Shown piece by piece: positions 6,536-42,228 of a DNA stretch of 54,136 bases. The notes beneath the pieces are model-generated. The model saw nothing but the letters and a program-made list of their open reading frames with translations. It was not told where the DNA came from and did not search any database. The stretch lies in IMG/VR virus record IMGVR_UViG_3300006853_000020, positions 1 to 54,136 of that record; one strand, 5' to 3'. Source of the stretch: a virus. Position 1 is the first letter of the stretch; every line of letters starts with the position of its first letter. Both the position numbers and the translations under genes were made by a program.

Positions 6536-6537
6536 AC

Positions 6538-6819
6538 TCAGATTCCTTCCAAAAAGAACCCCCTGACCACCCGTCTCGTCCAGTACCATTGTGGCCTGGT
6601 GGCTGGAACCCCCAGCCATGCCAGACCGCCGGGTGGGCAGGGGGTGTGGTTAGTCGTCGTAGCCTCGAATTCGTCATCACATTCGCAAAGACCTTCTAGC
6701 ATTGGTGCATGGCAGTGTTGGCAGATTTCGACCATGTCTTCGCCTGCCGATTGAATGCAGCCAGCACCATGACATATGTCATCGCAACACGCCTCAAGGT
6801 TAACTGGACAAACTCGCAT
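6538..6819 (-). CDS. Cys-rich hypothetical protein
   Basis: 93 residues. The N-terminal half is rich in cysteine and histidine (CPVNLEACCDDICHGAGC, then CQHCHAP and CECDDE), consistent with zinc binding. The C-terminal half is Pro/Trp-rich and less protein-like, so the true end is uncertain. Its stop lies 2 bp before the proposed GTG start of the methyltransferase. Confidence 0.5.
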   Translation of the reverse strand: MRVCPVNLEACCDDICHGAGCIQSAGEDMVEICQHCHAPMLEGLCECDDEFEATTTNHTPCPPGGLAWLGVPATRPQWYWTRRVVRGFFLEGI

Positions 6820-15579: not shown

Positions 15580-16656
15580 ATGGCCTATCTCTACAGGGTT
15601 AAAAAGGCTGGGTACGAATCGCCCAAGTGGTACGGCCGGTGGAAGGACTCTGCCGGCCAATGGCGATCTATGGCCCTGAGCAAGCACAAGGCCACAGCGC
15701 AAAAGATGTTGTCGGCGCTGTCGATCAATCAGGAGCTTGAGACTGTCGGCATTGGCCGGAACAAGATCACGCTCGATCAACTGGTGCTCAAGTTCCGGGA
15801 ATCGATCGCTTCAGCCAGCACCCCGGACTATGCCAAACTCATTCATGGCCGGGTGCATCGAACGATCGCGCATCTCCATATCGGCAGGCCCGAGCAGATC
15901 AACGCGGCCAACACTCAGATTGCGGTTGCCGAACTCACTAATTCCCTGCGGACCAGGAACCACTATGCAGCGGCTATCAAGCAGTTCTGCCGGTGGCTGG
16001 TGGATAATGGTTACTCAAGGAAGAACCCGGTGGCTGGTCTGAAGCCTGCCAAGGCCGATGCAGACAAGAGGTATGTGCGACGGGCTCTCACCCGGGAAGA
16101 GTGGGCAAGGCTCTCAGAAGCCACCCGGGGTAGCCCGGCTCAATTCAGGGGACTAACCGGGGTAGACCGGCTGGCACTCTACCAGGTCGTAATGGCCACA
16201 GGCTGGAGGGCAGGGGGGTTGGCTCAACTTCGGGTGGGAGACTTCTATCCCGATGGGTTGGTGATTCTCCAAGCGAAATATTCCAAGAACCGAAAAGAGC
16301 AGCGGAAGTTTTTACCCCCGACGCTCACTAAGGTGATGCAGAAGTATTTGCAGGATCGGAAGCCACAGGAGCATGCCTGGCCAGGCACCTGGGCCCAAGA
16401 CGCGGCTGAGATGTTGCGAGTGGATCTGAAGGCGGCTGGCATTGCTCACAAGAACGAAGAAGGTATCCTTGACTTCCACTCGTTCCGCAACACATCGATT
16501 ACCTGGCTCTTGGAAGCTGGCACCCCGATTTATCTGGTGCAGAAGCATGCTGACCATGCGAATCCGGCGCAGACGATGCGCTATGCGAGGCCATCGCGGG
16601 GGACGCTGGACAAGGCGGTGGAAGATGTGTTTTCGGGGACGGTTGGAACTGGTTAA
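15580..16656 (+). CDS. int: Tyrosine-family integrase
   Basis: 358 residues, normal length for a phage integrase. An N-terminal arm-binding segment (YESPKWYGRWKDSAGQWRS) is followed by a core-binding SAM-like domain and a catalytic domain: GWRAGGLAQLR carries the first Arg, KNRKEQRKFLP the Lys, HSFRNTSITWLLEAG the His-x2-Arg, and HADHANPAQTMRYAR the His/Tyr with Tyr as nucleophile. It integrates the phage genome into the host chromosome. Adjacent excisionase and repressor make the phage temperate. It converges with the MT-A70 gene. Confidence 0.95.
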   Translation: MAYLYRVKKAGYESPKWYGRWKDSAGQWRSMALSKHKATAQKMLSALSINQELETVGIGRNKITLDQLVLKFRESIASASTPDYAKLIHGRVHRTIAHLHIGRPEQINAANTQIAVAELTNSLRTRNHYAAAIKQFCRWLVDNGYSRKNPVAGLKPAKADADKRYVRRALTREEWARLSEATRGSPAQFRGLTGVDRLALYQVVMATGWRAGGLAQLRVGDFYPDGLVILQAKYSKNRKEQRKFLPPTLTKVMQKYLQDRKPQEHAWPGTWAQDAAEMLRVDLKAAGIAHKNEEGILDFHSFRNTSITWLLEAGTPIYLVQKHADHANPAQTMRYARPSRGTLDKAVEDVFSGTVGTG

Positions 16657-17213
16657 GGTTTAACTTCATCTCCGAACTGATCCCATCCTGCTCTCGGAAA
16701 GCGAGCGAACATTTCCAGATAAGGCCCCGGGCTACATGCTTCAACAATGCCATAAATCTCATCTGGCTTGCGGGAATGCTCTCGTTTGCGAGTGGCAAGC
16801 ATATTAACTTGCCTCCTGCCAGCAGCGCCAGTTCGTACCGATCCCTTAACGCCGAACAAGATAGCCTCAGTCACGTTGCGGAAGTAGAAGCCAACGCCGC
16901 GTCCGTCTGGCCCACCATCTTTCCTGATTTTGAACCACGTCAGCATGGTTTTATATTGGAAACCCCAGCACTCCATGACTCTCAACCCGTCTGGGATCAA
17001 GGCATTTGGAACCCATAGATACAGGTGACTTTTTGCAGCAGCATGATTCGCTACCGGCAAATCACAAATATCGAGCAATCCCATCGTTTGATAACGCTTC
17101 AGCCTTTTGTGCTCTGGCGCAACCTTTCCAGTCCTATTGGCGAACTGCCAAGGCGGATCAGCCATGATAGTTGAGTAGGTTCCAGTCACGCCGTTCAGTT
17201 GGGTATTCTTCAT
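16653..17213 (-). CDS. MT-A70-family adenine methyltransferase
   Basis: 186 residues from ATG 17213, 2 bp after the stop of the XRE gene. IMADPPWQF carries the catalytic Asp-Pro-Pro-Trp of MT-A70 N6-adenine methyltransferases, and SHLYLWVPNALIPDGLRVMECWGFQYKTMLTWFK and RKPDEIYGIVEACSPGPYLEMFARFPRAGWDQFGDE are the family's other blocks. It methylates adenine in DNA, probably as anti-restriction. It is the last gene of the leftward operon. An upstream start at 17300 is open but lies inside the XRE gene. Confidence 0.85.
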   Translation of the reverse strand: MKNTQLNGVTGTYSTIMADPPWQFANRTGKVAPEHKRLKRYQTMGLLDICDLPVANHAAAKSHLYLWVPNALIPDGLRVMECWGFQYKTMLTWFKIRKDGGPDGRGVGFYFRNVTEAILFGVKGSVRTGAAGRRQVNMLATRKREHSRKPDEIYGIVEACSPGPYLEMFARFPRAGWDQFGDEVKP

Positions 17214-17217
17214 TTCG

Positions 17218-17406
17218 TTACTCCGGCCAAACATCCGCAATCCACTTCTTGAAAAACCTGGCGATCTTCCGGGCTGTTGATAGTTGCACTTCGGCACCAC
17301 GCTCGAGGCGAGCCAGTGTTGAATGTGGGATGCCTGTCTTGGCAGACAGTTCTCGCAGGGAGAGCTTGCTGGCTTTGCGGATGTGGCGGAGGTGGCATTT
17401 CATCAT
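17218..17406 (-). CDS. Small XRE helix-turn-helix protein
   Basis: 62 residues. LRHIRKASKLSLRELSAKTGIPHSTLARLERGAEVQLSTARKIARFF is a complete XRE helix-turn-helix with the conserved SxxxLARLERG recognition segment. It overlaps the upstream gene by 4 bp and precedes the MT-A70 gene. It could autoregulate this second operon or act as a second phage regulator beside the immunity repressor. Confidence 0.8.
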   Translation of the reverse strand: MMKCHLRHIRKASKLSLRELSAKTGIPHSTLARLERGAEVQLSTARKIARFFKKWIADVWPE

Positions 17407-20975: not shown

Positions 20976-21593
20976 TTATCGTCTCCGCGAGAACAACCCA
21001 CGCCGAGAGGACTGGGCAGCCGAACCACAGGAGCCAGTGGAACAATCGCCCGTAGAAACTTTCGTGGTGTCAGGAAAGGTTTCAACGACCTTACTTCCTC
21101 TGACAAACAGGTGCATATACCTTTTGCCATCTGATCCACGCACCCACGCCGCCCCAGCATGGCTGTAGTTGTCGTCCATGCAGCATGTCGCCCAGCCCCA
21201 GCTATCATCCAGAGCCCCACAGCCAGCGGAATCCGCATGGGCGCCAGCAGGCAGACAGGCGAAGTCACTCTGCAGATGCCCAGCCCAGAGGTGATTCGCC
21301 CTGGCTTGAGCTGCTGTGAGCGCTGCTTCGGTCAACTGTGGATCGTGCTGGAATGGTGGTAGTCCACGTTTGGCCCGGTACTCGTTCACTTCGGCGAGAG
21401 CGTTAGGGCAGGACTCCGTGGTAGCCGTCGTTGGCTTAGTGGAGTTAGTTGTCTCCGTCACCTTCCAAACCGTCTCGTTGCTGACAACAGTCCACGCCCA
21501 AGCAGCGCGGCCACGGGCTTTTTGGGCGGATGCGGTAAGGCCAGCAGTTAGACAGGTGGACAGGATGAGCAGGGAAATGATCGTTTTTTTCAA
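20976..21593 (-). CDS. Secreted CAP/SCP-domain protein
   Basis: 205 residues from a TTG preceded by AAGGAGAATTGAC. LKKTIISLLILSTCLTAGLTASAQKA is a signal peptide. The mature part contains CPNALAEVNEYRAKRGLPPFQHDPQLTEAALTAAQARANH, the first helix region of CAP/SCP domains, then GAHADSAG and SHAGAAWVRG, typical of bacterial CAP proteins. Such proteins bind lipids or the cell wall outside the cell. It has no catalytic cell-wall hydrolase motif. Its presence may modify the infected host envelope or aid lysis. Confidence 0.75.
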   Translation of the reverse strand: MKKTIISLLILSTCLTAGLTASAQKARGRAAWAWTVVSNETVWKVTETTNSTKPTTATTESCPNALAEVNEYRAKRGLPPFQHDPQLTEAALTAAQARANHLWAGHLQSDFACLPAGAHADSAGCGALDDSWGWATCCMDDNYSHAGAAWVRGSDGKRYMHLFVRGSKVVETFPDTTKVSTGDCSTGSCGSAAQSSRRGLFSRRR

Positions 21594-21594
21594 G

Positions 21595-21714
21595 TCAATT
21601 CTCCTTAGGTGGTTTCGGTAGCACTCCAAACCATTCAAGAAACATCCGCCCCAGTTCTCGAAGGAGAACCAGGGTGAGTAGTACATCAACGATGAGACGT
21701 TGCTTTCGGGTCAT
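21595..21714 (-). CDS. 39-residue single-helix membrane protein
   Basis: MTRKQRLIVDVLLTLVLLREL then GRMFLEWFGVLPKPPKEN; one transmembrane or membrane-surface helix with a basic N-terminus. Its stop is 1 bp before the CAP gene's TTG start, indicating coupling. Candidate holin/antiholin or spanin component; unproven. Confidence 0.5.
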   Translation of the reverse strand: MTRKQRLIVDVLLTLVLLRELGRMFLEWFGVLPKPPKEN

Positions 21715-22284: not shown

Positions 22285-23091
22285 CTAGTTACATGAAGCG
22301 TTGATAACCCGGATGGCAACGGCGCCATCCGGAATAGCCTTTTGGCCTTGAAGAACGAATGACCCAAGTTCGCCCCAACCGTCCGTCCACGAGTTGTCAC
22401 CTTCAGGACAGAAGCTGCCTGGCTCAACTTCGCGAGGAGTGTGAAGGTTCACGCTGTGCCCCCACCAGTTGAAGTCAGCAGCAACTGGAATACGCAGCAA
22501 CAGCAAAGTAAACATCTGATCGAAACTCAACTGCTGGTCATAGACGGCAACATTTGCGTCATACCAGCCTTCAGTGATAATGTTTTCTGCTGCGTTCTCC
22601 CAAACAGCGGGCTTGTCATTGGCCCGGTTCATTGACTTCTCTGGCCAAACATCAACAGACGGCACACCGCGACGACGAATGAACTCTAACGACAAGCCGC
22701 ACCAACCACCCTCATCACGAAACCCCTTGACCATGCAAGCCACGGCATGGGCCGAGAGCCGTTTGTAGGGCTGGTTCATAATCGCCCGCTGATACATCAC
22801 AGCACGAGTTACTGAATATGCCCAGCAATACCCCTGCCCGTTTTGGTCGAGCGTTGGCATCTGCTGCCCGTTGGCTGCATACTTCCGGATGTCAGCAAGT
22901 GACGACTGTGTTCCCTCCATCTCTTTGATTCGGGCAGACCACTCATGCCGGGGGATTACTTTCAACTGATCGGGTGCGTCGCCAAAGATAGACTTCAGCC
23001 CGGTCGAAGTAACTTGTGATTGGTCATATCCACGGCCAAACATCTTGGGATAAATGAGGTCTGATTTCGTCGAGTCGTTGATGATGAACAT
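22285..23091 (-). CDS. Papain-like (C1) cysteine peptidase
   Basis: 268 residues. The full catalytic set of family C1 is visible: Gln83 in LDQNGQGYCWA (oxyanion hole), Cys89 (nucleophile, six residues later, as in papain), His212 in NWWGHSVNLH, and Asn233 in DNSWTDGWGELGSF. The NSW-WG motif is textbook C1. There is no signal peptide. Phage members of this family are very rare. It lies beside secreted and small membrane proteins, where the lysis cassette would be expected, and overlaps the preceding secreted-protein gene by 1 bp. Confidence 0.8.
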   Translation of the reverse strand: MFIINDSTKSDLIYPKMFGRGYDQSQVTSTGLKSIFGDAPDQLKVIPRHEWSARIKEMEGTQSSLADIRKYAANGQQMPTLDQNGQGYCWAYSVTRAVMYQRAIMNQPYKRLSAHAVACMVKGFRDEGGWCGLSLEFIRRRGVPSVDVWPEKSMNRANDKPAVWENAAENIITEGWYDANVAVYDQQLSFDQMFTLLLLRIPVAADFNWWGHSVNLHTPREVEPGSFCPEGDNSWTDGWGELGSFVLQGQKAIPDGAVAIRVINASCN

Positions 23092-23957
23092 TAGTTGCCC
23101 CCATATTGCTTGAGCTTCTTCATCAACTCGGCAACGTTGACTGGCAGTGGTCCCTCAAAGCCATCAACTCCATTACTAATCACGATCCACGGAAGAGACT
23201 GGCGAGGCCTGGCCATAGCGTCCTGCCAAACCTTGGATTCGCGGGTGACGTTCGTCTGTTGGTCGTACACCCGCCACTCAGGTTGATTGCCATCCTTTGC
23301 ACACTTTAAATTCATGTACTCGCGGACTTCGCGAGCATTGATTGCAGAGATCTGAGAGGAAGGTAGATTGCTCAGGTCTTTCGACTCAAGCACAATCAAA
23401 ACGCGTAGGCCTTGTGTTGGAATAGGAGGAGGATTTGGCGGTTGCGGCTCAGGAGGCTGAGGCCCTGGTGGCGTGGGTGGTGGCTGTGGTCCTGCCCCAA
23501 TCGTTATCAACTTCTCAACAACCGTAACAATCGAGTTGCCATCCTCGCTAATGCCAAGCACTGTCACCCAAGACGTACCATTCTTGGTGGCCTTCAATCG
23601 CCAGTAGTCGTCAGGCTGGGGCGGAAACTCATACTCCTTGATGCCGGTGTCACCTACGCGAGTTCCATCAATCATCAGCACAACGCCAGCGGGAACCGTT
23701 CGCAGGGCTAATACCGTGGGGTCACTCAGCTTGAGCAGCAGCTTTGTGCCCGGCTTTGTTTTGATCGTACTGCCACGCTCAAATATCTGGAACTGGCCAA
23801 CGTCCCACTTCTCGCCAGCCTTGGCACCATCAATGAGCTTCTGCGCTTTGTCCAGCGCTTCCTGATTGACACCTTCGCCAAGACGGATCGCTCCAGGTAT
23901 CTGCCCCCAGACCCACGCCGGCAACAACAGAAGTAGCAGCAACGCTAATCGTTTCAC
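23091..23957 (-). CDS. Secreted protein with proline-rich linker
   Basis: 288 residues. MKRLALLLLLLLPAWVWGQ is a signal peptide (the GTG start overlaps the stop of the next small gene). Residues 20-160 form a beta-rich domain; a PPPTPPGPQPPEPQPPNPPP linker follows; the C-terminal domain (LRVLIVLESKDLSNLPSSQISAINAREVREYMNLKC) looks like a thioredoxin-like or bacterial cell-surface alpha/beta fold with DQQTNVTRESKVWQDAM. Function unknown. It is exported, and is co-translated with the papain-like peptidase. Confidence 0.7.
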   Translation of the reverse strand: MKRLALLLLLLLPAWVWGQIPGAIRLGEGVNQEALDKAQKLIDGAKAGEKWDVGQFQIFERGSTIKTKPGTKLLLKLSDPTVLALRTVPAGVVLMIDGTRVGDTGIKEYEFPPQPDDYWRLKATKNGTSWVTVLGISEDGNSIVTVVEKLITIGAGPQPPPTPPGPQPPEPQPPNPPPIPTQGLRVLIVLESKDLSNLPSSQISAINAREVREYMNLKCAKDGNQPEWRVYDQQTNVTRESKVWQDAMARPRQSLPWIVISNGVDGFEGPLPVNVAELMKKLKQYGGN

Positions 23958-25843: not shown

Positions 25844-26482
25844 GTACCGAGACTAACATCGGTATCAGTGGGGCAAATACAGGCGGTACAGAAGTATATT
25901 CAAAAAACTTTCTGGCCCGTGGAACTGCAACCGATACCCCCACGAACGAAGATTGTTATCAGGGAACAAGACTCTTGGCAGGTGCTCAAGCAGAAGTGTG
26001 ATTACTTACGGCGAGAGATGAAGGATAGGGATCGGTATATTTCCAAACAGGATTCGCTGATTGCAAAATGTGATAAGTTCATCGACCAATGCACGATGAA
26101 ACTGCCCAAAGTAGGGCGAGTGCCAAGCGTCCGGTGTGCTGATTGTCGCAAGCCACATCCCTTAACCGATTACAACCTGCGAGTTCCAAGGAATACTACC
26201 GCCGAGCACTGGCTGGTACTGCCCTATTGCAAGAGCTGCAGGCGCAAGAGGCAGACCCGGGCCGATCAAGAGGCAAGACGGATCGCCAAACAGGTTGACG
26301 AAGGAGAACACGTTACCGAGATGGCGGGAATGATGGTATCCCGGCTGAAGGGGTATCTGGAGCGGAGCGCGGAGCAGTCGAGAGTCACGGTATTCAGCCA
26401 GTCATCACGAGGGCGGCGGGTGTATCGGGGTAGCTGTCCGGAAGATGACGAGGATGGTGATGGCGACTGGGGAGACGATTAG
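25832..26482 (+). CDS. Zinc-finger protein on plus strand
   Basis: 216 residues, AAGGAGGAGCCGTCG before the ATG. CADCRKPHPLTDYNLRVPRNTTAEHWLVLPYCKSC is a zinc finger of four cysteines, followed by a basic stretch; the first part has a coiled coil (LKQKCDYLRREMKDRDRYISKQDSLIAKCDKF). The C-terminus is acidic. Function unknown. Its first codons run through promoter element 7 on the other strand, so the two are likely to interfere. Confidence 0.65.
   Translation: MGSHVPRLTSVSVGQIQAVQKYIQKTFWPVELQPIPPRTKIVIREQDSWQVLKQKCDYLRREMKDRDRYISKQDSLIAKCDKFIDQCTMKLPKVGRVPSVRCADCRKPHPLTDYNLRVPRNTTAEHWLVLPYCKSCRRKRQTRADQEARRIAKQVDEGEHVTEMAGMMVSRLKGYLERSAEQSRVTVFSQSSRGRRVYRGSCPEDDEDGDGDWGDD
25844..25868 (-). 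promoter_or_regulatory. Late promoter element 7
   Basis: CTGATACCGATGTTA (25854-25868, complement) with TAGTCT in the extended -10 position. An ATG begins 10 nt after the element. It also lies within the first 13 codons of the plus-strand gene at 25832. It should drive the 25.7-19.6 kb membrane/lysis block. Confidence 0.7.
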
Positions 26483-26706
26483 CCCTTCTTGCACATCCAG
26501 GCCTTTATTCTGTAACCGGACACCCCGCCTAGCCCGTCATTTATCGACACGATCTCCCAACCAAGCAGTCTAAGAATTGGGTTGGCGATCACTTTCCACA
26601 AGGGGCGATGACATCTGCCCGATGAAAAAATTGGAATTCGACTTCCATCTGGAAGAACAATCAAGTTAGAACGATCTTCGATTGGTGCCCAAGTAATCCA
26701 TTTCAT
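26479..26706 (-). CDS. Hypothetical protein
   Basis: 75 residues from ATG 26706 (GGGAGTTGCGCG upstream). KWITWAPIEDRSNLIVLPDGSRIPIFSSGRCHRPLWKVIANPILRLLGWEIV, with a SGYRIKAWMC tail, is a small beta-rich domain. Function unknown. It follows the FkbM methyltransferase gene in the same direction and converges with the plus-strand zinc-finger gene. Confidence 0.5.
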   Translation of the reverse strand: MKWITWAPIEDRSNLIVLPDGSRIPIFSSGRCHRPLWKVIANPILRLLGWEIVSINDGLGGVSGYRIKAWMCKKG

Positions 26707-26720
26707 CGCGCAACTCCCAA

Positions 26721-27494
26721 CTAAGCCTGCAACCACAGATTCCGCATGACCGGCTTCAACAGGTCATCAATCGAAATATCCACCGTCAAGCCATCAGTGG
26801 TGATATCCCGCAGTCGAAAACTCTTGGCAATAGCCCCAGCGAAGAACTGAGCATCAGGGTAACGGGCAGGCTCCCACTCCATGACGATGATGATGTTCGG
26901 GTTGCGGTCGATGGTCTTCTGCATGCCATCCCAAGCGTCCCGTTCGCCACCTTCGATGTCCATTTTGATGAAGTCGATCTTATCCTCTTCACCATCTATT
27001 GTTACAACTGAGACGTTTTCCTCACCATTTGGAGAAAGCCTGCTGCCTCCCCCATCAGTGCGGAGAAATCTGCCATCAGTGTCTTCGTTTCCGGCTGCCT
27101 CTTGATAACATTTCACCCAGTGCTGCCCATTGGCTCGTACGGAACGCTCGCACAACACAACATGTCGATGGTTCGGTTCAAAAGCAATCACCTTGCCAGT
27201 AGGTCCCACCAGATCAGCCATCAGCACTGTGTAGTAACCACACCATGCTCCAACGTCCAAGCACGTCCACCCGGGCTGGATGGCCCGGCCAATGGCCATT
27301 GTAACCCAAGGCTCCCAGTAGCCATCGAGCATGAGCCAGGGAGCCATGTCGTAATTCAAAGGGTCAACGTACATGTTGAACCGATTGATAACTCGACACA
27401 ATACCGCATCGCCTAGGAAAGCAGTCCTGGCATTTGCCCGGCAAGCGTTTTCGATCTGGTCTCGGTTGTGGTTCATCAGTTCTCTAGTTGTCAT
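26721..27494 (-). CDS. FkbM-family methyltransferase (1)
   Basis: 257 residues from ATG 27494 overlapping the radical SAM stop. WTCLDVGAWCGYYTVLMADLVGPTGKVIAFEP is the S-adenosylmethionine-binding motif I; DFIKMDIEGGERDAWDGM is the acidic catalytic segment of FkbM enzymes, which methylate sugar or polyketide hydroxyls. It forms a three-gene overlapping set with a radical SAM/SPASM enzyme and a glycosyltransferase. Confidence 0.85.
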   Translation of the reverse strand: MTTRELMNHNRDQIENACRANARTAFLGDAVLCRVINRFNMYVDPLNYDMAPWLMLDGYWEPWVTMAIGRAIQPGWTCLDVGAWCGYYTVLMADLVGPTGKVIAFEPNHRHVVLCERSVRANGQHWVKCYQEAAGNEDTDGRFLRTDGGGSRLSPNGEENVSVVTIDGEEDKIDFIKMDIEGGERDAWDGMQKTIDRNPNIIIVMEWEPARYPDAQFFAGAIAKSFRLRDITTDGLTVDISIDDLLKPVMRNLWLQA

Positions 27495-28348
27495 GATGTC
27501 ACGCAATCCTTTCGACTTTTACAGTTACCGCAGGGGATGCGCCTGTCTGTCTTGTGCCACATATCTCGGATTTGAATCATCTCGGCGGATTCCCAGACCT
27601 GTTTCAATGTTCGTTCACCAATATTGCCTAATCCCCAATCATCCATGCCCACGCAGCACGGAATAACTGTACCGTCCGCTGTGACCATTAGATAGCGATT
27701 CGGCATGTCGCACTCAGCACTCATTGACCGTGGAGTAGCCAAGGTTTCGCACAACACCTTGGGATGCCCTGCCATCTCTGGGCGTAGAAAACCATTGATC
27801 GGTAGAGAATTGGGCCATGTTCGTGGCTGCTTCAAATAGAGAAAGATGTTGGGTCTGATAGTGTAGGGGAATAGCTCGTCCATTAGCCGATGGTAGTGCG
27901 GTTGAGCACCTTCTGAGCAAACCATCTGAATATAAACGCGGTAATTCTGCGATGGCTGCGATAAGTACAGTTGAGCATTCGTGAGACATCGTTCCACGAA
28001 GTCATTTTTCGCCGTCCACGGGACAGATAGAATCAAGTTGAGTTTCTTAAACTTCCGTAGATCATCAGCCAACTCGGGAAGCTTTAAGCAATTGGTACTT
28101 AGCCAGTATTCCGGGATGATGGATTCAGCAAGCCTGAGAATGCTGATAAGGTCTGTGTGTAGCGTAGCTTCACCTACACCATGATAATTCATCGTTCGCA
28201 CACCGAGCGATGCACATTCCCGAATAAGACGAAATGCCAATTCCGTTGGCATGGATTTACGTTTCGTGGTTCGTTGCTGCCAGGTGCAATAATCGCAGAC
28301 GGTATTACAACTACTCATTAACTCCAAGTGTACTTCATCCAGCTTCAT
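27491..28348 (-). CDS. Radical SAM/SPASM enzyme
   Basis: 285 residues. CNTVCDYC (Cys14, Cys18, Cys21) is the Cys-x3-Cys-x2-Cys iron-sulphur site; NYHGVGEATLHTD is the radical SAM GGE-like strand. The C-terminal region VIPCCVGMDDWGLGNIGERTLKQVWESAEMIQIRDMW...CGNCKSRKDC is a SPASM domain with additional clusters. SPASM enzymes modify peptides or sugars. Rare in phages. Overlaps both neighbouring genes by 4 bp. Confidence 0.9.
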   Translation of the reverse strand: MKLDEVHLELMSSCNTVCDYCTWQQRTTKRKSMPTELAFRLIRECASLGVRTMNYHGVGEATLHTDLISILRLAESIIPEYWLSTNCLKLPELADDLRKFKKLNLILSVPWTAKNDFVERCLTNAQLYLSQPSQNYRVYIQMVCSEGAQPHYHRLMDELFPYTIRPNIFLYLKQPRTWPNSLPINGFLRPEMAGHPKVLCETLATPRSMSAECDMPNRYLMVTADGTVIPCCVGMDDWGLGNIGERTLKQVWESAEMIQIRDMWHKTDRRIPCGNCKSRKDCVTS

Positions 28349-29151
28349 ATCAGCTTCCTCAGTTCATTCAGGTAACTATCAATCTCTCTCGACCAAGGGA
28401 TTGATCGCTTGCCCTTCAGTTGATTGCTAGTGTACGTATGGTTGCCCAGTTGCGGTTTAATGTGAATTCTGTGTTCCCACATATCAGAACCGTCGAACCA
28501 CTTCTGCATCAGTCCCCAGTTTCCCCCACCAGGAGCATAAGGTGGAACTGCATACGTTTGTCCTGCAAGCCGGGCTGCAATCGCTGGCGTGGTCTTGTCG
28601 CCATACACGATCTTGTAAACTAGGTCACTGTAGGAGTTCAGCACCACTGTCAGATGCAGAGCCAGCCCCCAGGGCCGTTTATCGATCAGGAATGCCCCTG
28701 TCTCTAAGTCCCATGCTCTCTCTGTTGGCAATCCAAACATTTCAAACACCTGCGGTTTGATCAGTTCAAACTTAGTGCAATCCCGTTGGAACACTGCCCC
28801 GCTGCCAAGAAAACGTGGATCATTCAAAGTGAATGTCGGGTCTCGCATCGGGTAGCAATCAGCATCCAGGAAGATGACCCGCCTGAAAGATGACTGCTGC
28901 ACAGCGTAGAACTTCAGTTCCCAGCCATTGAGGATTCGTATCGGCTTGGTCGTTCTTCTCTCGTCTGCATCGCAGCAAGCCACGTCGTAGGGTTCAACGA
29001 TCTTCTGCCAAGCTTCGGGCATTTCGTTGTTGCGCCCAAGATACCAAAGCTCGATAGGCAGCTTGCACCCATGATGACGAATGAGCCTGATGTTGCAGTA
29101 GGCGGCTGCAAAGTACTTACCCCCGCCGACTATTACGATCCCATCACCCAC
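28345..29151 (-). CDS. Glycosyltransferase (Mnn1-like)
   Basis: 268 residues. IFLDADCYPMRDPT carries the DxD metal/sugar-nucleotide motif; IVIVGGGKYFAAAYCNIRLIRHHGC, GWELKFYAVQQSSFRR and WDLETGAFLIDKRPW are conserved blocks of the mannosyltransferase-like GT families. It probably adds a sugar to a surface glycan or virion protein. Together with the radical SAM enzyme and FkbM methyltransferase it makes a glycan-modifying cassette. Confidence 0.8.
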   Translation of the reverse strand: MGDGIVIVGGGKYFAAAYCNIRLIRHHGCKLPIELWYLGRNNEMPEAWQKIVEPYDVACCDADERRTTKPIRILNGWELKFYAVQQSSFRRVIFLDADCYPMRDPTFTLNDPRFLGSGAVFQRDCTKFELIKPQVFEMFGLPTERAWDLETGAFLIDKRPWGLALHLTVVLNSYSDLVYKIVYGDKTTPAIAARLAGQTYAVPPYAPGGGNWGLMQKWFDGSDMWEHRIHIKPQLGNHTYTSNQLKGKRSIPWSREIDSYLNELRKLI

Positions 29152-29680
29152 GGAAGCCTTCCTTTTCCTTTTGGATGATGGAACGGAACAGGGCCCAGAC
29201 GTTGGGGTCTTTGATCCATTCGCCGTTGACGGGGAGTTCGTCGGGAAGTTCCTGATATAGCGCAGCCTGTGCTACATTGGCTTTTGCCTCCCACCTATCA
29301 CACTTCCCCGTACACCAAGCCAACGTGGTATAACCATCATGCCCACCGCCACCATGGCACCGTTGAAGAGTCGTCTGCCCAGAGCATTGCCGACAAGAGG
29401 TATCAAGCTTCCGGGCTGTTTCTGATAGCCCCTTGGCTTCCTCATTTGTCAGCCGATGCGGATCAAGATGCCTGCACTGCCTAGCAATAGGCAGGGAGCG
29501 GAGGAGTTTCTTGGGGGCATCAACCTTTTGACTCCCACGCTTCTTCTGCCACAGATCACGATATGCTTGGGCAAGCGGAGTTAATTGTTGAGACAGTACC
29601 AGCGTGTGCCCGCGATGGTGCCGTTTGCAATCCAAGCACCATGCCCCAGTCTCACGCTGCTCAAGGCGGCAAGGGGTCAT
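29144..29680 (-). CDS. Cys-rich hypothetical protein
   Basis: 178 residues with three zinc knuckles: CLDCKRHHRGH, CRHLDPHRLTNEEAKGLSETARKLDTSCRQC and CHGGGGHDGYTTLAWCTGKCDRW. The Trp/Cys pattern of the last part resembles small planctomycete-type zinc domains. Overlaps both neighbours. Function unknown; virion or modifying-enzyme accessory possible. Confidence 0.55.
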   Translation of the reverse strand: MTPCRLEQRETGAWCLDCKRHHRGHTLVLSQQLTPLAQAYRDLWQKKRGSQKVDAPKKLLRSLPIARQCRHLDPHRLTNEEAKGLSETARKLDTSCRQCSGQTTLQRCHGGGGHDGYTTLAWCTGKCDRWEAKANVAQAALYQELPDELPVNGEWIKDPNVWALFRSIIQKEKEGFRG

Positions 29681-30360
29681 AGCGTCACCTCAAGAGTGAG
29701 GGTTGTTAGTTCGCAGTTTTGGCACCCGGTCTGGCCGACTTGAATGAGATCGCCGTCGCAATTGATTAATCCGCACGACACCGGAGCCGACAGACTGATA
29801 AAGAATGGATCACACTCCACAAGTCCTTCTACCCCGCATACATCTGGCCCGTAGGGTTGGCCTTGATAAAGAACATTGTCGTTGGCATAGCTGGTTCCGT
29901 TCCAAAGAGCATTGGTTGTGATGGAATAAGCCTGAACCACCGCTCGCCAGCGTTTAGGGTCAGAAAAAAAGCCACCAGTGGATTCACACCAAATCCATAC
30001 ATACAAGTCGGGGGTCTCACTCCAAGCTGTAATACCCCCGCCGCAATCAAGACACCCTCCGTCCACCAAGTCCGTCGAAGTTCCCTCGTAAGATAGCCCT
30101 AAACCCGCATTACAATTAGCTGTTCGGTTCAGGGTGATCGACTTGGTTCCGGCACAAGACGTCACCGTGGCTTGCAAAGTAGCTGGGGGGCTATTGTTGA
30201 GTCCTGCGGCCGTGCAATAGCCACAACATGCCTGGGAGTTGGGGCCGTCACCGCCACTCCCTGACCCACTTCCCCCGCAGCATGGCTTGCAGAGCTTTGC
30301 CGTCGCCACAGCAAGCTTCTGTGTAAGCGTCAGGCCCGGTGGAAGCTCAAACGGTGGCAT
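29677..30360 (-). CDS. Cys-rich virion protein (tail tip)
   Basis: 227 residues with a flexible SGSGSGGDG linker and many cysteines in a beta-rich fold (SCAGTKSITLNRTANCNAGLGLSYEG). Similar Gly/Ser-linked, Cys-rich domains occur in tail-tip proteins. Immediately follows the 30363-30932 gene (2 bp gap). Role inferred from position at the end of the tail module. Confidence 0.55.
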   Translation of the reverse strand: MPPFELPPGLTLTQKLAVATAKLCKPCCGGSGSGSGGDGPNSQACCGYCTAAGLNNSPPATLQATVTSCAGTKSITLNRTANCNAGLGLSYEGTSTDLVDGGCLDCGGGITAWSETPDLYVWIWCESTGGFFSDPKRWRAVVQAYSITTNALWNGTSYANDNVLYQGQPYGPDVCGVEGLVECDPFFISLSAPVSCGLINCDGDLIQVGQTGCQNCELTTLTLEVTL

Positions 30361-30362
30361 TG

Positions 30363-30932
30363 TTATTCCACCGGGGTCACAGTGTTACCGTTAATCGTGA
30401 ATACGTGCGTGGTGCCATCGCCGCAGTCTACGGTGAAGGTGTTGCCACCGGAGCCGGAGCCTTCTGCCCCAGCGCCGCCAATTATCACCCAGTGGCTTGC
30501 AGCCTTCTTGAGCAATACATTCTGGCCAGCAAGCCAGGAATCCCCATTAAGCGGATAGGCATAGTTGGCCCCAGATGTTCCGGTTTGAGGCAGAGTCGTT
30601 GTCACGCCATTGGGGACAATCACGCCCTTCCAAGGGAAGTCGTCGTAAATCTGATCAAAGGCATAAGCCAGGTAGCCTTCCTCGTCTGTGAATCCTTCGC
30701 CAGCAGGATCCAGAGAGAATCCACTTCCGCCACTTCCACTGCCTTCGGCTCGAATCTGGCCGTAGATGAACACTTGAGGTGATGGCACCTCAGTAGGCAT
30801 AGTGCCGCCCTGGACATGCTCCCCCTGATAGCGGCTGATAGAATCGAGTTGCTCATCAGTACGACGCATCCACTGCCGCTGAGGAGGGCTAGCGTCGTAG
30901 GGAATCCGGGTTGGAGTGCGCGGGGTGAACAT
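30363..30932 (-). CDS. Virion protein, tail tip/fibre-associated
   Basis: 189 residues from ATG 30932 (stop of the preceding gene overlaps as TAATG). Gly/Ser linkers (EGSGSGGSGFSLD, GAEGSGSGGNTFTVD) connect beta modules, and DGTTHVFTINGNTVTPV ends in a short repeat-like strand. Probably part of the tail tip. Confidence 0.6.
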   Translation of the reverse strand: MFTPRTPTRIPYDASPPQRQWMRRTDEQLDSISRYQGEHVQGGTMPTEVPSPQVFIYGQIRAEGSGSGGSGFSLDPAGEGFTDEEGYLAYAFDQIYDDFPWKGVIVPNGVTTTLPQTGTSGANYAYPLNGDSWLAGQNVLLKKAASHWVIIGGAGAEGSGSGGNTFTVDCGDGTTHVFTINGNTVTPVE

Positions 30933-32104
30933 TATGGCCCCGCTGGCAACGCAGGTGGCTGAATGCACTCAGGCGGGATCCAGAATAGCTTTCTGAAGTC
31001 CACCAGGTCGATGAGAGGGTTTCCTGCGACTACTGAGGTTGTTCCGTCTGCGCTAGTCCTATACAGCCTCAACCGGGTAACTCCAGCAGCATCCTTAACC
31101 GTCTTTCGCACGTAGTTATGGCCAACTACAGCACCCGCTCCGGTGGGGCTGTTGTCGATGTTGTGGACCTTGCGGAAGCCATATTGCACGTTCCAGTATC
31201 GTCGTCCCATTCGCAGGGGCTGGCGAACGATATCAGCGGAAACAAAGTGCAGGGTTTCTTTCGGTTGGCCTGCGGTGTAATCAGGAGTGGGAAAGATGGC
31301 GTTGGAGTTCACTCGCCCGAAGCACAGGTTGATCGCCGCAATCGGGTCGTAGGGCAGATCGTAAATGTACAGCCAGAAGTCTGCGATGTTGTCCAAGACG
31401 CTGGGCTTCTGCTCATATTGAACTGTACCCAGGGGTCCGCCTTCCTGCCCTGTCGTGGGATAGCCAACAATCTTCAAGGCCTCAGAAGGGTACTGAAAGA
31501 AGATGCTTGCAGGCTTCTGAACGATTCGAGCATAGCGAAGCCACTCCCGACAACAGCCGATCGTTCCCGACCCTGCGGATCCGCCACCGTTGTAGACTTC
31601 AGCATCTGAGTAAAGGTCGTAGTCCAAAGCAGCGAAGGAAACCAGTATCTTCGCATAAGTGCCTTTCGGCCTGTTCACTGAGAGGGAGGGTGCACCGTCG
31701 TTGCTCTTAGCGCCATCGGGCATTGCCACGGCACGAACTGCATGCACCCAATCAATCGGCACCGGTGGAGTAGATCCATCCACCAGCCCCATGTGATAGC
31801 CAACAGGCAGCTTGCGATGAACATGTCGCCCATCGTAGGTCGTGGTCCCCGGCGTGCCGTACCCATCTGCCGACACTCCATTAGTGCCAGCAGCATTGAT
31901 TTTGGCAAAGCCCACCATGTTTTCGATGAAATTAAATCGGTCAGCCCAAGCAACAAGGAAGGTGCGTGTGCAGCCACTTCCTTCGGGTGAGAACTGCTCT
32001 ACTAATTCAGGATCGCTACGTTCTTCGCTGTACGCAATGCTATAAGAGGCACCCGTCGTGTAGTTTTCACAAGTGAGACTTTGCTGGAGTGGACGATCCG
32101 CCAC
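30932..32104 (-). CDS. Tail tip/distal tail protein
   Basis: 390 residues; no recognised family, but size, position after the tape measure and beta-rich composition with repeated Gly turns fit a distal tail or baseplate protein (FVSADIVRQPLRMGRRYWNVQYGFRKVHNID near the C-terminus). The GTG start at 32104 has AAGGG upstream. The frame is also open back to the transcript start predicted from promoter element 6, 15 codons earlier. Confidence 0.6.
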   Translation of the reverse strand: MADRPLQQSLTCENYTTGASYSIAYSEERSDPELVEQFSPEGSGCTRTFLVAWADRFNFIENMVGFAKINAAGTNGVSADGYGTPGTTTYDGRHVHRKLPVGYHMGLVDGSTPPVPIDWVHAVRAVAMPDGAKSNDGAPSLSVNRPKGTYAKILVSFAALDYDLYSDAEVYNGGGSAGSGTIGCCREWLRYARIVQKPASIFFQYPSEALKIVGYPTTGQEGGPLGTVQYEQKPSVLDNIADFWLYIYDLPYDPIAAINLCFGRVNSNAIFPTPDYTAGQPKETLHFVSADIVRQPLRMGRRYWNVQYGFRKVHNIDNSPTGAGAVVGHNYVRKTVKDAAGVTRLRLYRTSADGTTSVVAGNPLIDLVDFRKLFWIPPECIQPPALPAGP

Positions 32105-37398: not shown

Positions 37399-38184
37399 TT
37401 ACTTGGGCCGGGCTACTACATGGAAGATATCATTGCTCTCAAAAGTCGTTGGCCTCCCCTGGAGAGTGAGCAGTTCGTACCCATGTCGTTCGAATACTTC
37501 ACGAATCAAATAGGCACGTTCATTGCCGTGAATTTCCAAAAGAATCACAGGACGCGCCTCGCCTAACAATCGGGAGGAGCCCTGTGAGATTGCTTCCCAT
37601 TCAGCACCTTCGATATCAATTTTGACGACATGAGGCTTGCCATGGCGATCAATAAGGGCATCGGGCGTGGTAGATTTTACCTCACGATGGTTCTGTCCTT
37701 GTGGATTCTCGCCCGTGAACTTGCGTAACGTAATTAAGTGACCACCTGGATCACCTTCGTCGCGTGTTTGAAAGATGGCAGTTCCGATTTCGCCAGCTAT
37801 TGCTTCTTGCAGAATGACCCAGTTGTCTATTTTGTTGATTTCCTTCAGGTCCATCATGTGACTGCAATTGCCCGGGTCAGGATCGACTGAGACGCACTTG
37901 CCTTCCTGGCCAACCAACTTCCTGGCCATCAGGCTATAGAAGCCAGCATTGGCCCCAAGGTCAAAAAAGGTCATTCCCGGTTTTAGCTCAGCTGCAAGAG
38001 CAGTTTGAAAGGCGGGCTCAAAATCACCTGTCCAATAGCTGTTGATGTACCGTCGCCGTCGTCGCCAGAGCATTCCCTCGGCATGGCCTGCGTGGATAGG
38101 AACGATTGACCCCTCAAGGAATACGCTGATGCACCATCTGGCAATTTGTCGAACGATAGGGATAGATTTGAAATATCGAAGCAT
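37399..38184 (-). CDS. FkbM-family methyltransferase (2)
   Basis: 261 residues. MTFFDLGANAGFYSLMARKLVGQEGKCVSVDPDPGN is motif I; HVVKIDIEGAEWEAISQGSSRLL is the FkbM catalytic segment. Differs from the first copy in sequence and has a basic N-terminal part (RRRRRYINSYW). Inserted between the fibre and connector genes, just before promoter element 4, so a probable cargo gene. A 19-bp palindrome (38229-38247) lies upstream. Confidence 0.8.
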   Translation of the reverse strand: MLRYFKSIPIVRQIARWCISVFLEGSIVPIHAGHAEGMLWRRRRRYINSYWTGDFEPAFQTALAAELKPGMTFFDLGANAGFYSLMARKLVGQEGKCVSVDPDPGNCSHMMDLKEINKIDNWVILQEAIAGEIGTAIFQTRDEGDPGGHLITLRKFTGENPQGQNHREVKSTTPDALIDRHGKPHVVKIDIEGAEWEAISQGSSRLLGEARPVILLEIHGNERAYLIREVFERHGYELLTLQGRPTTFESNDIFHVVARPK

Positions 38185-38228: not shown

Positions 38229-38300
38229 ACTCGACATTTTGTCGAGTACAATCGTATGTTATTTGGTGGCATAAAGTTACAGCATCGTCATTTGTCGAGT
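38229..38300. repeat. Palindrome and direct repeat before FkbM gene
   Basis: ACTCGACA-TTT-TGTCGAGT (38229-38247) is a perfect 8-bp palindrome with 3-bp spacer. Its second arm recurs in CATTTGTCGAGT at 38289-38300 (CATTTTGTCGAGT in the palindrome). They flank the spacer between fibre gene end and FkbM gene, a possible operator for the cargo gene. A nearby hairpin could also slow transcription. Confidence 0.6.
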
Positions 38301-40183
38301 GCTACACTCGGCACCCTCTGCATAAACTCCGTCAACGCAGGCTGCACCACATTAGTCAATGCCTGAATGCCATCACTACCATTGGTATCTACAACCAATC
38401 GGTTATAGCTGCAGTGATAGACCATGCAGTTTTCTCCCTCAACCCGCATGCCCACCCAGTCATTAAGTAAGAGCCGATGTTTCTCTTTGGTGACTGGAGC
38501 ACGGGAAACGAAATCCCATCCGGCAGTGTCGCCCAGTTTAATGCTCACCTTGGGACGTGGCTTGTAAGACGTATAGTCCAGCAGACAATGCCCACGTTTA
38601 TCCACGAACAGTTGATCGACTGACAGAGTTGCGATCCATCCAATTTGGAAGAGTTGCTTGCTGGCTGCGATATTCAAGCCACCAGTGAAGTAGGCTGCTC
38701 CCCCATCGAGGATGATTGGCCCAGTCGGAAAGCCGAGCATATGCGTTGTGTGGAAGCGATTGTTGACCGACTGATTGCCTTCAATCCGAATACTGCAAAA
38801 GCTGCAGCGTTCAAAGAGCCATTCGCTCTGAATGTGCCCGCCTGGCACCGATCCGCACTCCCAACCGATATGCAGCCCCTCTTTTGTAACCGTTGGGTGA
38901 GGGTCAAGGCTGAACTGGCAATCGATTCCTCTGAGCTTGAACCCCTGGCCACCTGAGTAATCGCTGCAGGTGAGGCACATTGAGGCACCAGGCCCACGAG
39001 AGCGGTCATCCTGGCAGAACATACTGTAGAGAGTCGTGCCCTGGACTTCTTCGTTCTGGGCAACGAACAAGGGCCAGTAGGTGGGGTGAGTGTTGGGCAT
39101 GCCTGGAGCGTTGGCTCTCTGCGTGAGTGTCCAGCCTCCAAAGCCGGGGGCCGAGTAGGTGCGCTTCTTGAGGCCTGGCTTGTAGGGTTCGATCATTGGC
39201 CCGTAGACGTGGGCACTGGCATCCACCGTAATCGAGTTATCGTTACTGAAGGCAGATTGCTGAATTGGTGACACCACCGATCGCGCGTCTACCACTGGCT
39301 CTGGCCCCAAGTGATCTTCCCAGAGAATCGGTTGATTGTCGTGGACGCCGAATAGGTACTTGTCTGGCAGGCTGCTGGCCTTCCACCAGGGGGCTGCGAG
39401 CTGACGTCTCCATTTGCCGTCGATCTTGAGGTAGAGATATCGGCCTATGGCGCCCATGGGGATTGGCTCAGCAATCGTCAGCCGGCGGTATCCGTAAGCA
39501 CTCGAGGCAAATCCACCGATCGGCGACGTTGGGCTCAGTGCAGTTTCCCCGCCGTGAGTAGCCCAGGCCCATGCGACTTGACCGGCTTTGAGTTGATGCG
39601 TCGCTGGCCAACATATCGGAGTCCCCAGTGGTGGAGCTCCGGCAAGTATCGTGCTGTTCTGCAGTGGAATCCCGGCGTTGCCACGGGTATGAAACACCAG
39701 TGGATAGGGCGAAGTTAGATTAGCGGACCAGGGATAGGGGTTGAGGGTGTCTTGCGGGTTGGCCACGTCCCCGAAGGCTCCGGAGTCAATTCCCCGGTGA
39801 CCCTGGCACATGAGTAGTACTTCGCCGGTGGATACACGAGTTGCCCGCCAGGCTACGGCCGCCCGGTCCTTGTGGTTAGGAATATTGGAGTTGCTGGCGA
39901 TCAATATCCAGCCCTGAGGCATATTGAGTACTAGCGGTTGGCTCCATGGTCCTATTCTGTTTTCCCTGTCTACCATCGCGTTCTGAATGAGCCAGTCACC
40001 GGCCGGGGCATAGACCCAAGTGCCATTCGGAAACCATCGCAGACTGATGAAACTGGTGTTCTCTTTGGCTGAGGTGGTGGGTGCTGAAACAGTAACAATC
40101 TTGTCCTGTAGGGCGGAGAGCTTGAGTTCGGCGTGAGCTGGTGAAGCAAGTAAGAACAGGCCGACAACAAATATCCGAATCAT
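38288..40183 (-). CDS. Large beta-helix-like tail/surface protein with signal peptide
   Basis: 631 residues from ATG 40183. MIRIFVVGLFLLASPAHAEL is a signal peptide, unusual for a virion protein. The mature part has repeated short strands (ANAPGMPNTHPTYWPLFVAQNEEV, FSLDPHPTVTKEGLHIGWECGSVPGGHIQ, LFERCSFCSIRIEGNQSVNNRFHTTHM) like a right-handed beta-helix. It lies downstream of the SGNH fibre gene, so either a secreted depolymerase or host-surface protein. An upstream frame to 40342 lies inside the SGNH gene and is not used. Confidence 0.6.
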   Translation of the reverse strand: MIRIFVVGLFLLASPAHAELKLSALQDKIVTVSAPTTSAKENTSFISLRWFPNGTWVYAPAGDWLIQNAMVDRENRIGPWSQPLVLNMPQGWILIASNSNIPNHKDRAAVAWRATRVSTGEVLLMCQGHRGIDSGAFGDVANPQDTLNPYPWSANLTSPYPLVFHTRGNAGIPLQNSTILAGAPPLGTPICWPATHQLKAGQVAWAWATHGGETALSPTSPIGGFASSAYGYRRLTIAEPIPMGAIGRYLYLKIDGKWRRQLAAPWWKASSLPDKYLFGVHDNQPILWEDHLGPEPVVDARSVVSPIQQSAFSNDNSITVDASAHVYGPMIEPYKPGLKKRTYSAPGFGGWTLTQRANAPGMPNTHPTYWPLFVAQNEEVQGTTLYSMFCQDDRSRGPGASMCLTCSDYSGGQGFKLRGIDCQFSLDPHPTVTKEGLHIGWECGSVPGGHIQSEWLFERCSFCSIRIEGNQSVNNRFHTTHMLGFPTGPIILDGGAAYFTGGLNIAASKQLFQIGWIATLSVDQLFVDKRGHCLLDYTSYKPRPKVSIKLGDTAGWDFVSRAPVTKEKHRLLLNDWVGMRVEGENCMVYHCSYNRLVVDTNGSDGIQALTNVVQPALTEFMQRVPSVALDK

Positions 40184-40185
40184 AG

Positions 40186-42228
40186 TTACGCCCATGGGGT
40201 AAGTGCCTGCAGTTCTGCGAGTGCCTTCGTGCCTAGGAAGAAATACATGTCCTGAACCGTCACGTTGTAGGAGGCGGAGTTGTCGGCCCCGCAACGAAGA
40301 TAGGCAGTGCCCGTATCTGGAGCTAAGGGCCCACCTGTCCAACCCTCGCCACTGGCTTTAAGCACAAGATTGGCAGGATTTTCATCAGGCGATGCATACA
40401 ACTTTCCACCGATGGCATCAGTAACGAAAGCAGCCATATGCCAGGCGTTGTCTCGATAGTTTGTTCCTGCACTGGACAGACCAGCCATCCCGTTTGTTCC
40501 GCAGAATAGATTGCCCGCGCTAGTTACACCGAGATACCAGTTTGTGCCCGACCCTTGGTACTTGCTAACCAGCTGCATGTTCGCAACATGGCTAGTCTTG
40601 AACCAGATCACTGCGGTAAAGTATGGCTGATCGAACGCACGATTGACTACGGGATATCGTGCATAGTTATTGCCTGTTGTGCAAACTAAGGCTTGCCTGC
40701 TCCAGAGGCCGCTCGTGTAAGTCGGGGCCCCAACTGCTTCAAAATCCCTAGTGTAGAGGCCGCTGTCCAGCAGATTGCCATTGAAGCGAAGATGGAAGTG
40801 TTCTGTAGTGACATCCTCATTCATGAACCCGTCAAGAACTTGACGACAGGCACGGAGAATCACGGAATGCCCGGTGGCAGTCAGATGAATTGTGTCTGGG
40901 TCGTAGTATTGCCGGTCTGAAGCATCAGCGGACGTGTCGTTTTTCCTCATCTCGATGGGAGTCGGCACGTAAACGCCGTATTTTCTCGGATCAAGTGCTG
41001 CCATCGCGGCATTCACCGCAAGACGCTTGGTGTTCTGAACCGCCGTCAAGTCACCGCGGGGAGCGAAAGCGTTAAAGATCGTTCGATAACCATAGGACAT
41101 CAACCGATTTCGCCAGTCCGTGAACTCCGTGATGATGGTTGCCGCACTCGTGGCATCGTTGGGCAGATCATTGGTTGGTGGGTAGACCAACACGACTTGG
41201 CGTTTGGTCGGGTCATAGAACCTTGTGCCCACGGGTTGATTATTAATGGCTGAAATAACCGGCGCACGGGTTGTCATCTGAACTGCAGTGATCCCGCCCA
41301 AATCCTCGTGCACGCACATGAGGTCTGTCTTGCCCAGGATGTATTGGCGAGCAAAGCCAAGATTACCTTGAGCGTTCTGGCCACTGGCTATCGAGGCCCC
41401 CCAGATGAATAGTTGCTTCGAGACAGATGAAGCGGGTATGGCCTTTCGCCCAACGGCCCATGCTCGAAATGCTGCCAGCTTCGTTGAGTCAACGGCCTCA
41501 TTGCAAGGAACGGCACAGTTGATGCCCCCCATGAAGCCACTGGTTAAGCCGGCAAGTGAGCCGCTGAATAGCGAGAAACCAGTAGTAGTACCTGGTGCGA
41601 GTGGGCTAGCAATTTCATATGACAAGTCATCAAGTACGATGGTGATCCCGGTAGCCCGCAGGATCACGCCCACAAGAGTTAGACTTGATTTCAGACGCAA
41701 CCCTGTATCAACCGTCCCATTGACTCCGTCCCGCCAGACAAGCGTTGCTGGCACTGCTGAAGCAGGAGCGAGCGAGTAAAGATCGCCTACTCCGCCTGCA
41801 AGGCCCATGATGACCTTAGTCTCAGCAACACCATTAGTCATCAGCCTGTCATCTTCGATCAGGAAAAATAAACTGGCTGCCTGGTTGTCGATGCTGACAG
41901 TAGATTGCGGGAACGTCGGAAGATTAGTAGCCCCCTCAACGAAGTTGGAATACACAACCGGAGTGACATTTCTTCGGATTCGCAACTGGTTGGCAACAGT
42001 AGCCTGAACCAGGTGATGGCCGTTGCCGCTTAGATCCTGCCACGTTTTTAGTTTTTCGTACTCATTCGCAGCAACATCGCTGGCGTTAAGAGTTCCACGC
42101 GATGCTTCATAGAGGGCTGAATGGATGGATGGGTAGGGGGGCGAATCACCATAATAGTCTTCTAAGTAGATCGGGAGTGACCCCGTCACCCCCATCACAT
42201 TCCTGCCGCGGTTTGGCAATACTTTCAC
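40186..42228 (-). CDS. Receptor-binding protein with SGNH hydrolase and lectin-like domains
   Basis: 680 residues. Residues 60-250 and 490-670 resemble LamG-like concanavalin folds (LKTWQDLSGNGHHLVQA...; FHLRFNGNLLDSGLYTRDFE...GYNYARY; MAAFVTDAIGGKLYAS). Between them, FIWGASIASGQN (block I Ser), YPPTNDLPND (block III Asn), and DPDTIHLTATGH (block V Asp-x2-His) form a GDSL/SGNH esterase. It probably deacetylates or cleaves surface polysaccharide at infection. It is the large protein of the fibre module. Confidence 0.75.
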   Translation of the reverse strand: MKVLPNRGRNVMGVTGSLPIYLEDYYGDSPPYPSIHSALYEASRGTLNASDVAANEYEKLKTWQDLSGNGHHLVQATVANQLRIRRNVTPVVYSNFVEGATNLPTFPQSTVSIDNQAASLFFLIEDDRLMTNGVAETKVIMGLAGGVGDLYSLAPASAVPATLVWRDGVNGTVDTGLRLKSSLTLVGVILRATGITIVLDDLSYEIASPLAPGTTTGFSLFSGSLAGLTSGFMGGINCAVPCNEAVDSTKLAAFRAWAVGRKAIPASSVSKQLFIWGASIASGQNAQGNLGFARQYILGKTDLMCVHEDLGGITAVQMTTRAPVISAINNQPVGTRFYDPTKRQVVLVYPPTNDLPNDATSAATIITEFTDWRNRLMSYGYRTIFNAFAPRGDLTAVQNTKRLAVNAAMAALDPRKYGVYVPTPIEMRKNDTSADASDRQYYDPDTIHLTATGHSVILRACRQVLDGFMNEDVTTEHFHLRFNGNLLDSGLYTRDFEAVGAPTYTSGLWSRQALVCTTGNNYARYPVVNRAFDQPYFTAVIWFKTSHVANMQLVSKYQGSGTNWYLGVTSAGNLFCGTNGMAGLSSAGTNYRDNAWHMAAFVTDAIGGKLYASPDENPANLVLKASGEGWTGGPLAPDTGTAYLRCGADNSASYNVTVQDMYFFLGTKALAELQALTPWA

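Follow-up and report, generated by a model that had tools for sequence, protein, structure and literature searches.

The virus record IMGVR_UViG_3300006853_000020 was analysed over its full 54,136 bases, hereafter the window. It carries terminase and portal genes, as well as an integrase gene at 15580-16656 on the plus strand, most of the other genes lying on the minus strand; given the integrase, the phage is probably temperate. An earlier note had described a radical SAM enzyme, a glycosyltransferase (GT) and an FkbM methyltransferase as an overlapping set at 26721-29151, and three such ORFs are indeed present there on the minus strand (Table 1). They are joined by ATGA overlaps at the GT stop/radical SAM start and at the radical SAM stop/FkbM ATG, the FkbM start codon at 27494 giving a 4-base overlap with the radical SAM gene. 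However, transcription follows the order GT, radical SAM, FkbM, instead of the order radical SAM, GT, FkbM given in the note, and the overlapping run extends upstream to tail-region genes (29144-30968). The ORF at 29144 overlaps the start of the GT gene by 8 bases and the ORF at 29677 by 4, and a gap of 2 bases separates the latter from the ORF at 30363. As these overlaps continue upstream past the GT gene, the trio forms part of one gene run with the tail-region ORFs.

Table 1. Genes of the gene run and of the second FkbM region, in window coordinates.
Feature	Position	Strand	Evidence
Virion/tail-region protein, upstream in the same gene run	30932..32104	-	ORF list; no Pfam, PHROG or NCBIfam match
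Tail-region protein with Gly-Ser linkers GSGSGGSG and GSGSGG; candidate acceptor	30363..30968	-	G/S runs
Cys-rich tail-region protein (17 Cys) with linker GGSGSGSGG; candidate acceptor	29677..30360	-	G/S runs, Cys count
Small Cys-rich protein	29144..29680	-	ORF list, Cys content, overlap with GT
GT71/MNT2-like GT-A glycosyltransferase, DxD at residues 96-98	28345..29151	-	PF11051, model, fold match
Radical SAM enzyme with BtrN-like twitch auxiliary-cluster domain	27491..28348	-	Profiles, cysteines
FkbM-family O-methyltransferase, ATG at 27494	26721..27506	-	Pfam, NCBIfam
85-aa ORF of no assigned function, overlapping the FkbM end	26479..26736	-	ORF list
Second FkbM methyltransferase, 103 bp behind 38288-40342	37399..38184	-	Pfam, NCBIfam
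Large tail-region protein upstream of the second FkbM; weak candidate acceptor	38288..40342	-	Position; no family match

None of the ORFs upstream of the GT matched a family in Pfam, PHROG or NCBIfam, and we infer from their position and composition that they encode tail proteins. Cys-rich proteins precede GT71 genes in a comparable position in three other loci (L163, L171, L187), the likeness being one of placement and Cys content.

The GT matches PF11051 (Mannosyl_trans3) at E 3.6e-27, with 95.9 bits against a curated cut-off of 22. An AlphaFold2 model, computed from an alignment with 33 viral relatives, reached a pLDDT of 90.9 and a pTM of 0.91, and D96 and D98 are invariant in the 34 sequences. 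The best solved structure found with Foldseek and VIA-align was yeast MNT2 in its Mn/GDP-mannose form (Z 20.8 over 243 residues, 2.9 A), followed by glycogenin as the next family (Z 17.9), and the profile of the GT family finds MNT2 at E 3.8e-11 with the DxD, ESG and GDK positions aligned. The DxD glycosyltransferase of the earlier note is thus upheld by the Pfam match, the confidently predicted GT-A fold and the motif itself, and the enzyme can be assigned to family GT71. The yeast alpha-1,3-mannosyltransferases MNT2/MNN1, its best match in both sequence and fold, extend O-linked mannose on Ser/Thr. However, these are Golgi membrane enzymes with ~16% identity to the phage GT, whose donor and acceptor are predictions.

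A full SPASM domain, which holds two auxiliary clusters, is recognized by the seven-cysteine motif CX9-15GX4C..CX2CX5CX3C..C. The radical SAM enzyme of the window matches both Radical_SAM (PF04055, E 1.7e-7, 32 bits against a cut-off of 29.5) and the SPASM profile (E 2.3e-13), and its SAM-cluster motif CX3CX2C is formed by C14, C18 and C21. Towards the C-terminus we found C213, C231, C273, C276 and C282, while the last two SPASM cysteines are absent from the protein, which ends at residue 285. The first four of these cysteines align with BtrN, the best PDB match, and are kept in the related enzymes of L215 and L187. BtrN has a twitch domain, a truncated SPASM domain with one auxiliary cluster, held in its case by four cysteines (PMC9012708). 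The window enzyme is accordingly a BtrN-like twitch radical SAM protein with a putative single auxiliary cluster; of the radical SAM enzyme with a SPASM C-terminus proposed earlier, the first part stands, whereas the second does not hold in its full form despite the match to the Pfam profile.

Since BtrN oxidises an aminocyclitol, we guess that the phage enzyme oxidises a sugar. The two proteins have in common a radical SAM domain followed by one auxiliary-cluster domain with four matching Cys positions, but BtrN belongs to an antibiotic pathway and its overall similarity to the phage protein is low, so that the phage substrate is a guess. A RiPP-like pathway, in which the radical SAM enzyme would modify a small peptide such as the 85-aa ORF and the GT and FkbM would decorate it, could draw on weak matches to peptide-maturase models and on the overlap of that small ORF with FkbM. 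However, none of the maturase models reaches its cut-off, there is a single auxiliary-cluster site, and BtrN acts on an aminocyclitol; we regard such a pathway as very improbable. Viperin-like (pVip) defence was also considered and rejected, as the matches (NCBIfam, 24 bits against a cut-off of 180; PADLOC pVip, 7e-8) reflect the shared N-terminal radical SAM core only. The structure prediction of the radical SAM protein was poor (pLDDT 44.6) and was left out of the evidence, as were matches in 169 of 392 Planctomycetota genomes, which are generic, mostly partial and of 21-40% identity. A scan of viral and genome contigs found no close relatives.

Both FkbM genes lie well above the Pfam cut-off of 22.7 bits (E 4.7e-13 and 50.1 bits for 26721-27506; E 1.5e-13 and 51.7 bits for 37399-38184) and the TIGR01444 (fkbM_fam) cut-off of 37.7 bits (1.3e-21 and 77.6 bits; 1e-22 and 81.1 bits), which bears out the earlier assignment of an FkbM O-methyltransferase as well as that of a second copy at 37399. 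The first copy also matches phrog_8156 (8e-33), and the annotated genes closest to it, from Streptomyces and Rhodococcus phages, lie near DNA-metabolism genes with no adjoining GTs. These matches would suit a stand-alone phage methyltransferase family placed here by chance, the enzymes not forming one pathway; but GT71 and FkbM adjoin or are fused in several independent clusters, and we consider chance placement improbable. In Sinorhizobium phage phi3LM21 an FkbM gene is found directly behind tail fiber genes, like the second FkbM of the window. Long collagen-like proteins made of GVSG repeats are encoded in two loci that also have FkbM relatives (L122 and L134).

Six viral GTs, used as scan queries, identified at least 110 stretches encoding this GT family in uncultured viral contigs, and 80 loci were retained from these. 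Among 50,697 phage records, neither the window GT nor that of L090 found a GT71 relative, tblastn of the window GT gave no match in phages and plasmids, and a close-relative scan of viral contigs found none either. In Planctomycetota, PF11051 was detected in 2 of 294 genomes and the viral GT profile in 3 of 392, the third weakly. With many viral contigs, no match in phage records and few Planctomycetota, the family is known here mainly from uncultured viruses. The earlier remark that such a trio is uncommon in a tailed phage therefore applies to cultured phage records, where the GT is unmatched, but not to uncultured viruses.

FkbM lies within 4 kb of GT71 in 4 of the 15 clusters found by GT alone. 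The two are fused in L187 and apparently also in L211, where the FkbM match is the GT ORF itself, and the radical SAM gene recurs in the L187 cluster and in L215, each time with a Ser-Gly protein, GT71 and FkbM. Fusions to GT2 or GT8-like domains occur among other GT71 proteins, and in L164 a mannose-6-phosphate isomerase-type cupin lies behind GT71. Three loci (L086, L087 and L088) encode a 1,022-aa GT71 + GT2 fusion (2904-5972 in L086) with FkbM directly after it. L071 (genome G040:C578, 3713-6418) encodes a cellular protein of 901 aa that contains the PF11051 domain twice and has an end resembling a methyltransferase; its neighbours in that genome are a SPASM protein, a GT9 and a protein of (SSSSSG)n repeats with a Tat signal.

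Directly upstream of many GT71 genes we found a tail-region protein with a Ser-Gly tract of 100-500 residues. When GTs were grouped into clusters at 60% identity and a protein was scored positive if it had at least 60% S+G over 40 residues, 5 of the 14 testable clusters had such a tract no more than 2.5 kb upstream of the GT71 gene; among background genes the count was 11 of 656. The Fisher p of 7e-6 serves as a guide only, since clusters were taken as independent, the background came from the same pool of loci and one of the five positive clusters (L210) is half positive, with the tract 2 kb off; in addition, the thresholds were set after the first examples. The remaining 9 clusters are not positive, while in the largest one all 44 loci have an upstream tract. 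In an earlier comparison, at S+G of at least 0.7, 9 of 11 GT loci were positive, compared with 1 of 71 loci that have FkbM but no GT and with 0 of 32 terminase loci. Within the tracts, Ser is encoded by four to six different codons and Gly by three or four, and nearly all 12-mers of most tracts are distinct, which indicates that the composition is held at the protein level and does not stem from simple DNA repeats.

The window itself has three G/S runs of at least six residues with two Ser, a number reached in none of 500 shuffles, and all of them fall in the two ORFs (29677 and 30363) just upstream of 29144. However, these linkers are 6-9 residues long, and the best 40-residue S+G value is 0.48, for a Gly stretch elsewhere, and 0.38 in the linker proteins, below the 60% threshold applied to the other loci. 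In the GT tree, the window enzyme groups weakly (94/79) with L164, L206 and L235, all lacking long Ser-Gly neighbours. We found no homology between the tail-region proteins of the window and those of other GT71 loci, and a scan for relatives of the 29677-30360 product gave none. In view of the short linkers, the tree placement and the non-homologous tail proteins, the acceptor in the window is deduced from position.

We think it rather probable that the cassette glycosylates some virion protein, and give about even chances to the narrower proposal that in this phage it acts on tail proteins, at their Gly-Ser stretches. In the latter case, the soluble GT71-type enzyme would add a sugar either directly to Ser or onto a sugar already linked to Ser, on tail proteins made from its own operon; the sugar would probably be mannose or a related hexose, taken from a nucleotide-sugar donor. 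FkbM would next O-methylate the glycan, the twitch radical SAM enzyme would probably oxidise a sugar as BtrN does an aminocyclitol, and the second FkbM might serve another tail protein. The role could be shielding or altered receptor binding. A virion protein glycosylated elsewhere than on Ser-Gly linkers, for instance the Cys-rich tail protein, the tail tube or the capsid, would agree with the shortness of the window linkers, with tree neighbours devoid of such tracts, and with the glycosylation of capsid and tail-tube proteins by mycobacteriophage GTs (PMC12363180). The repeated Ser-Gly association in related loci speaks against it, and we hold it to be quite unlikely.

The main rival to virion glycosylation is that the trio alters a glycan on the host surface, either in lysogeny or in the course of infection, leading to serotype conversion or superinfection exclusion, the second half of what the earlier note had suggested. 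The phage looks temperate from its integrase, and phage GTs can modify the host serotype in lysogeny (PMC12619734). The best precedent, by analogy, is cyanophage SynMITS9220M01, where a radical SAM gene, a methyltransferase and a GT25 adjoin one another as in the window; these nevertheless belong to other methyltransferase and GT families and sit inside an LPS-heptose cluster, with no link to tail genes seen. Moreover, the trio of the window is soluble, lacking strong hydrophobic segments, no flippase, membrane or lipid-linked glycan enzyme was found among the genes scanned, and the cassette is embedded in the tail-region gene run, a late module, and not beside the integrase, just as its GT71 relatives recur at tail-region genes. 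Host-surface modification and a block to superinfection are thus left with no direct support, and we judge them unlikely, while the modification of virion glycans is the better supported half of the earlier suggestion, through the coupling to tail-region genes here and the position of GT relatives behind Ser-Gly proteins elsewhere.

The trio is best read as a variant of phage-encoded virion glycosylation. In Gram-positive adhesin systems of the GlyE/PsrP type, the surface protein has Ser-rich repeats and the GTs dedicated to it are encoded nearby; the structural search with the window GT also matched GlyE. These adhesins are however cellular, have their own secretion pathway, are not virion proteins and employ other GT families; to our knowledge, neither FkbM nor radical SAM enzymes take part in their glycosylation. 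In mycobacteriophages Che8, Corndog and Myrna, phage GTs modify the capsid and tail proteins of the phage itself (Freeman et al. 2023, cited in PMC12363180). There the glycans were demonstrated, whereas here they are predicted; the portion of that source available mentions neither a radical SAM enzyme nor a Ser-Gly tail protein, and the phage records searched hold no GT71 relative. In chlorovirus PBCV-1, A064R combines two GTs with a methyltransferase, which places a methyl group on the terminal rhamnose of the capsid glycan (PMC7826918); A064R and A111/114R are virus-encoded multidomain GT + methyltransferase proteins that build a methylated virion glycan, and in this they resemble the L187 fusion. 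However, this is a eukaryotic virus with an N-linked capsid glycan and other GTs, and no radical SAM enzyme is mentioned in the sections of the source available (PMC7826918).

The Ser-Gly/GT71/FkbM arrangement that recurs in other loci is a more solid and more interesting result than the trio of the window. Few phage systems are known to glycosylate their virions, and predicting the substrates is difficult; one GT family located directly behind Ser-Gly-tract proteins in many divergent contigs names both an enzyme and its acceptor and, if the link is real, would explain the purpose of these proteins. A doubtful but wider possibility is that mucin-like tails are widespread in uncultured phages, GT71 acting on long Ser-Gly proteins and FkbM capping the glycans, while in some lineages, including that of the window, a twitch radical SAM enzyme would rewrite sugars directly on virion glycoproteins. 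The literature searched does not describe a radical SAM enzyme taking part in the synthesis of a virion glycan. Open-access searches returned no article joining phage, radical SAM, FkbM, glycosyltransferase and virion, nor one joining phage, serine-rich tail fiber, glycosyltransferase and O-glycosylation, which in both cases is weak evidence of absence.

Concerning the host, the papain-like protein encoded at 22285-23091 (Peptidase_C1, 2.2e-5) has relatives in two Schlesneria MAGs (phylum Planctomycetota) and in one further bacterium, which makes a planctomycete host likely. Its gene adjoins those of a CAP-domain protein (20976-21689) and of a conserved protein (23091-23957) whose start resembles a signal peptide. 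No full sister phage was found among viral records: L033 has in common with the window the papain-like protein (66%) and a DNA methylase, and lacks both radical SAM and FkbM genes, and neither FkbM nor Radical_SAM was detected in 28 related viral records, many of these being short fragments. The window also encodes a C5 cytosine DNA methylase (5441-6619) and an MT-A70 methyltransferase (16653-17300). A further tail-region protein, at 40186-42228, shows weak matches to GDSL-lipase-like and concanavalin/laminin-G-like parts and is possibly a glycan-acting tail enzyme. Finally, the record starts with a run of 22 G (positions 1-22), probably a sequencing or assembly artefact.
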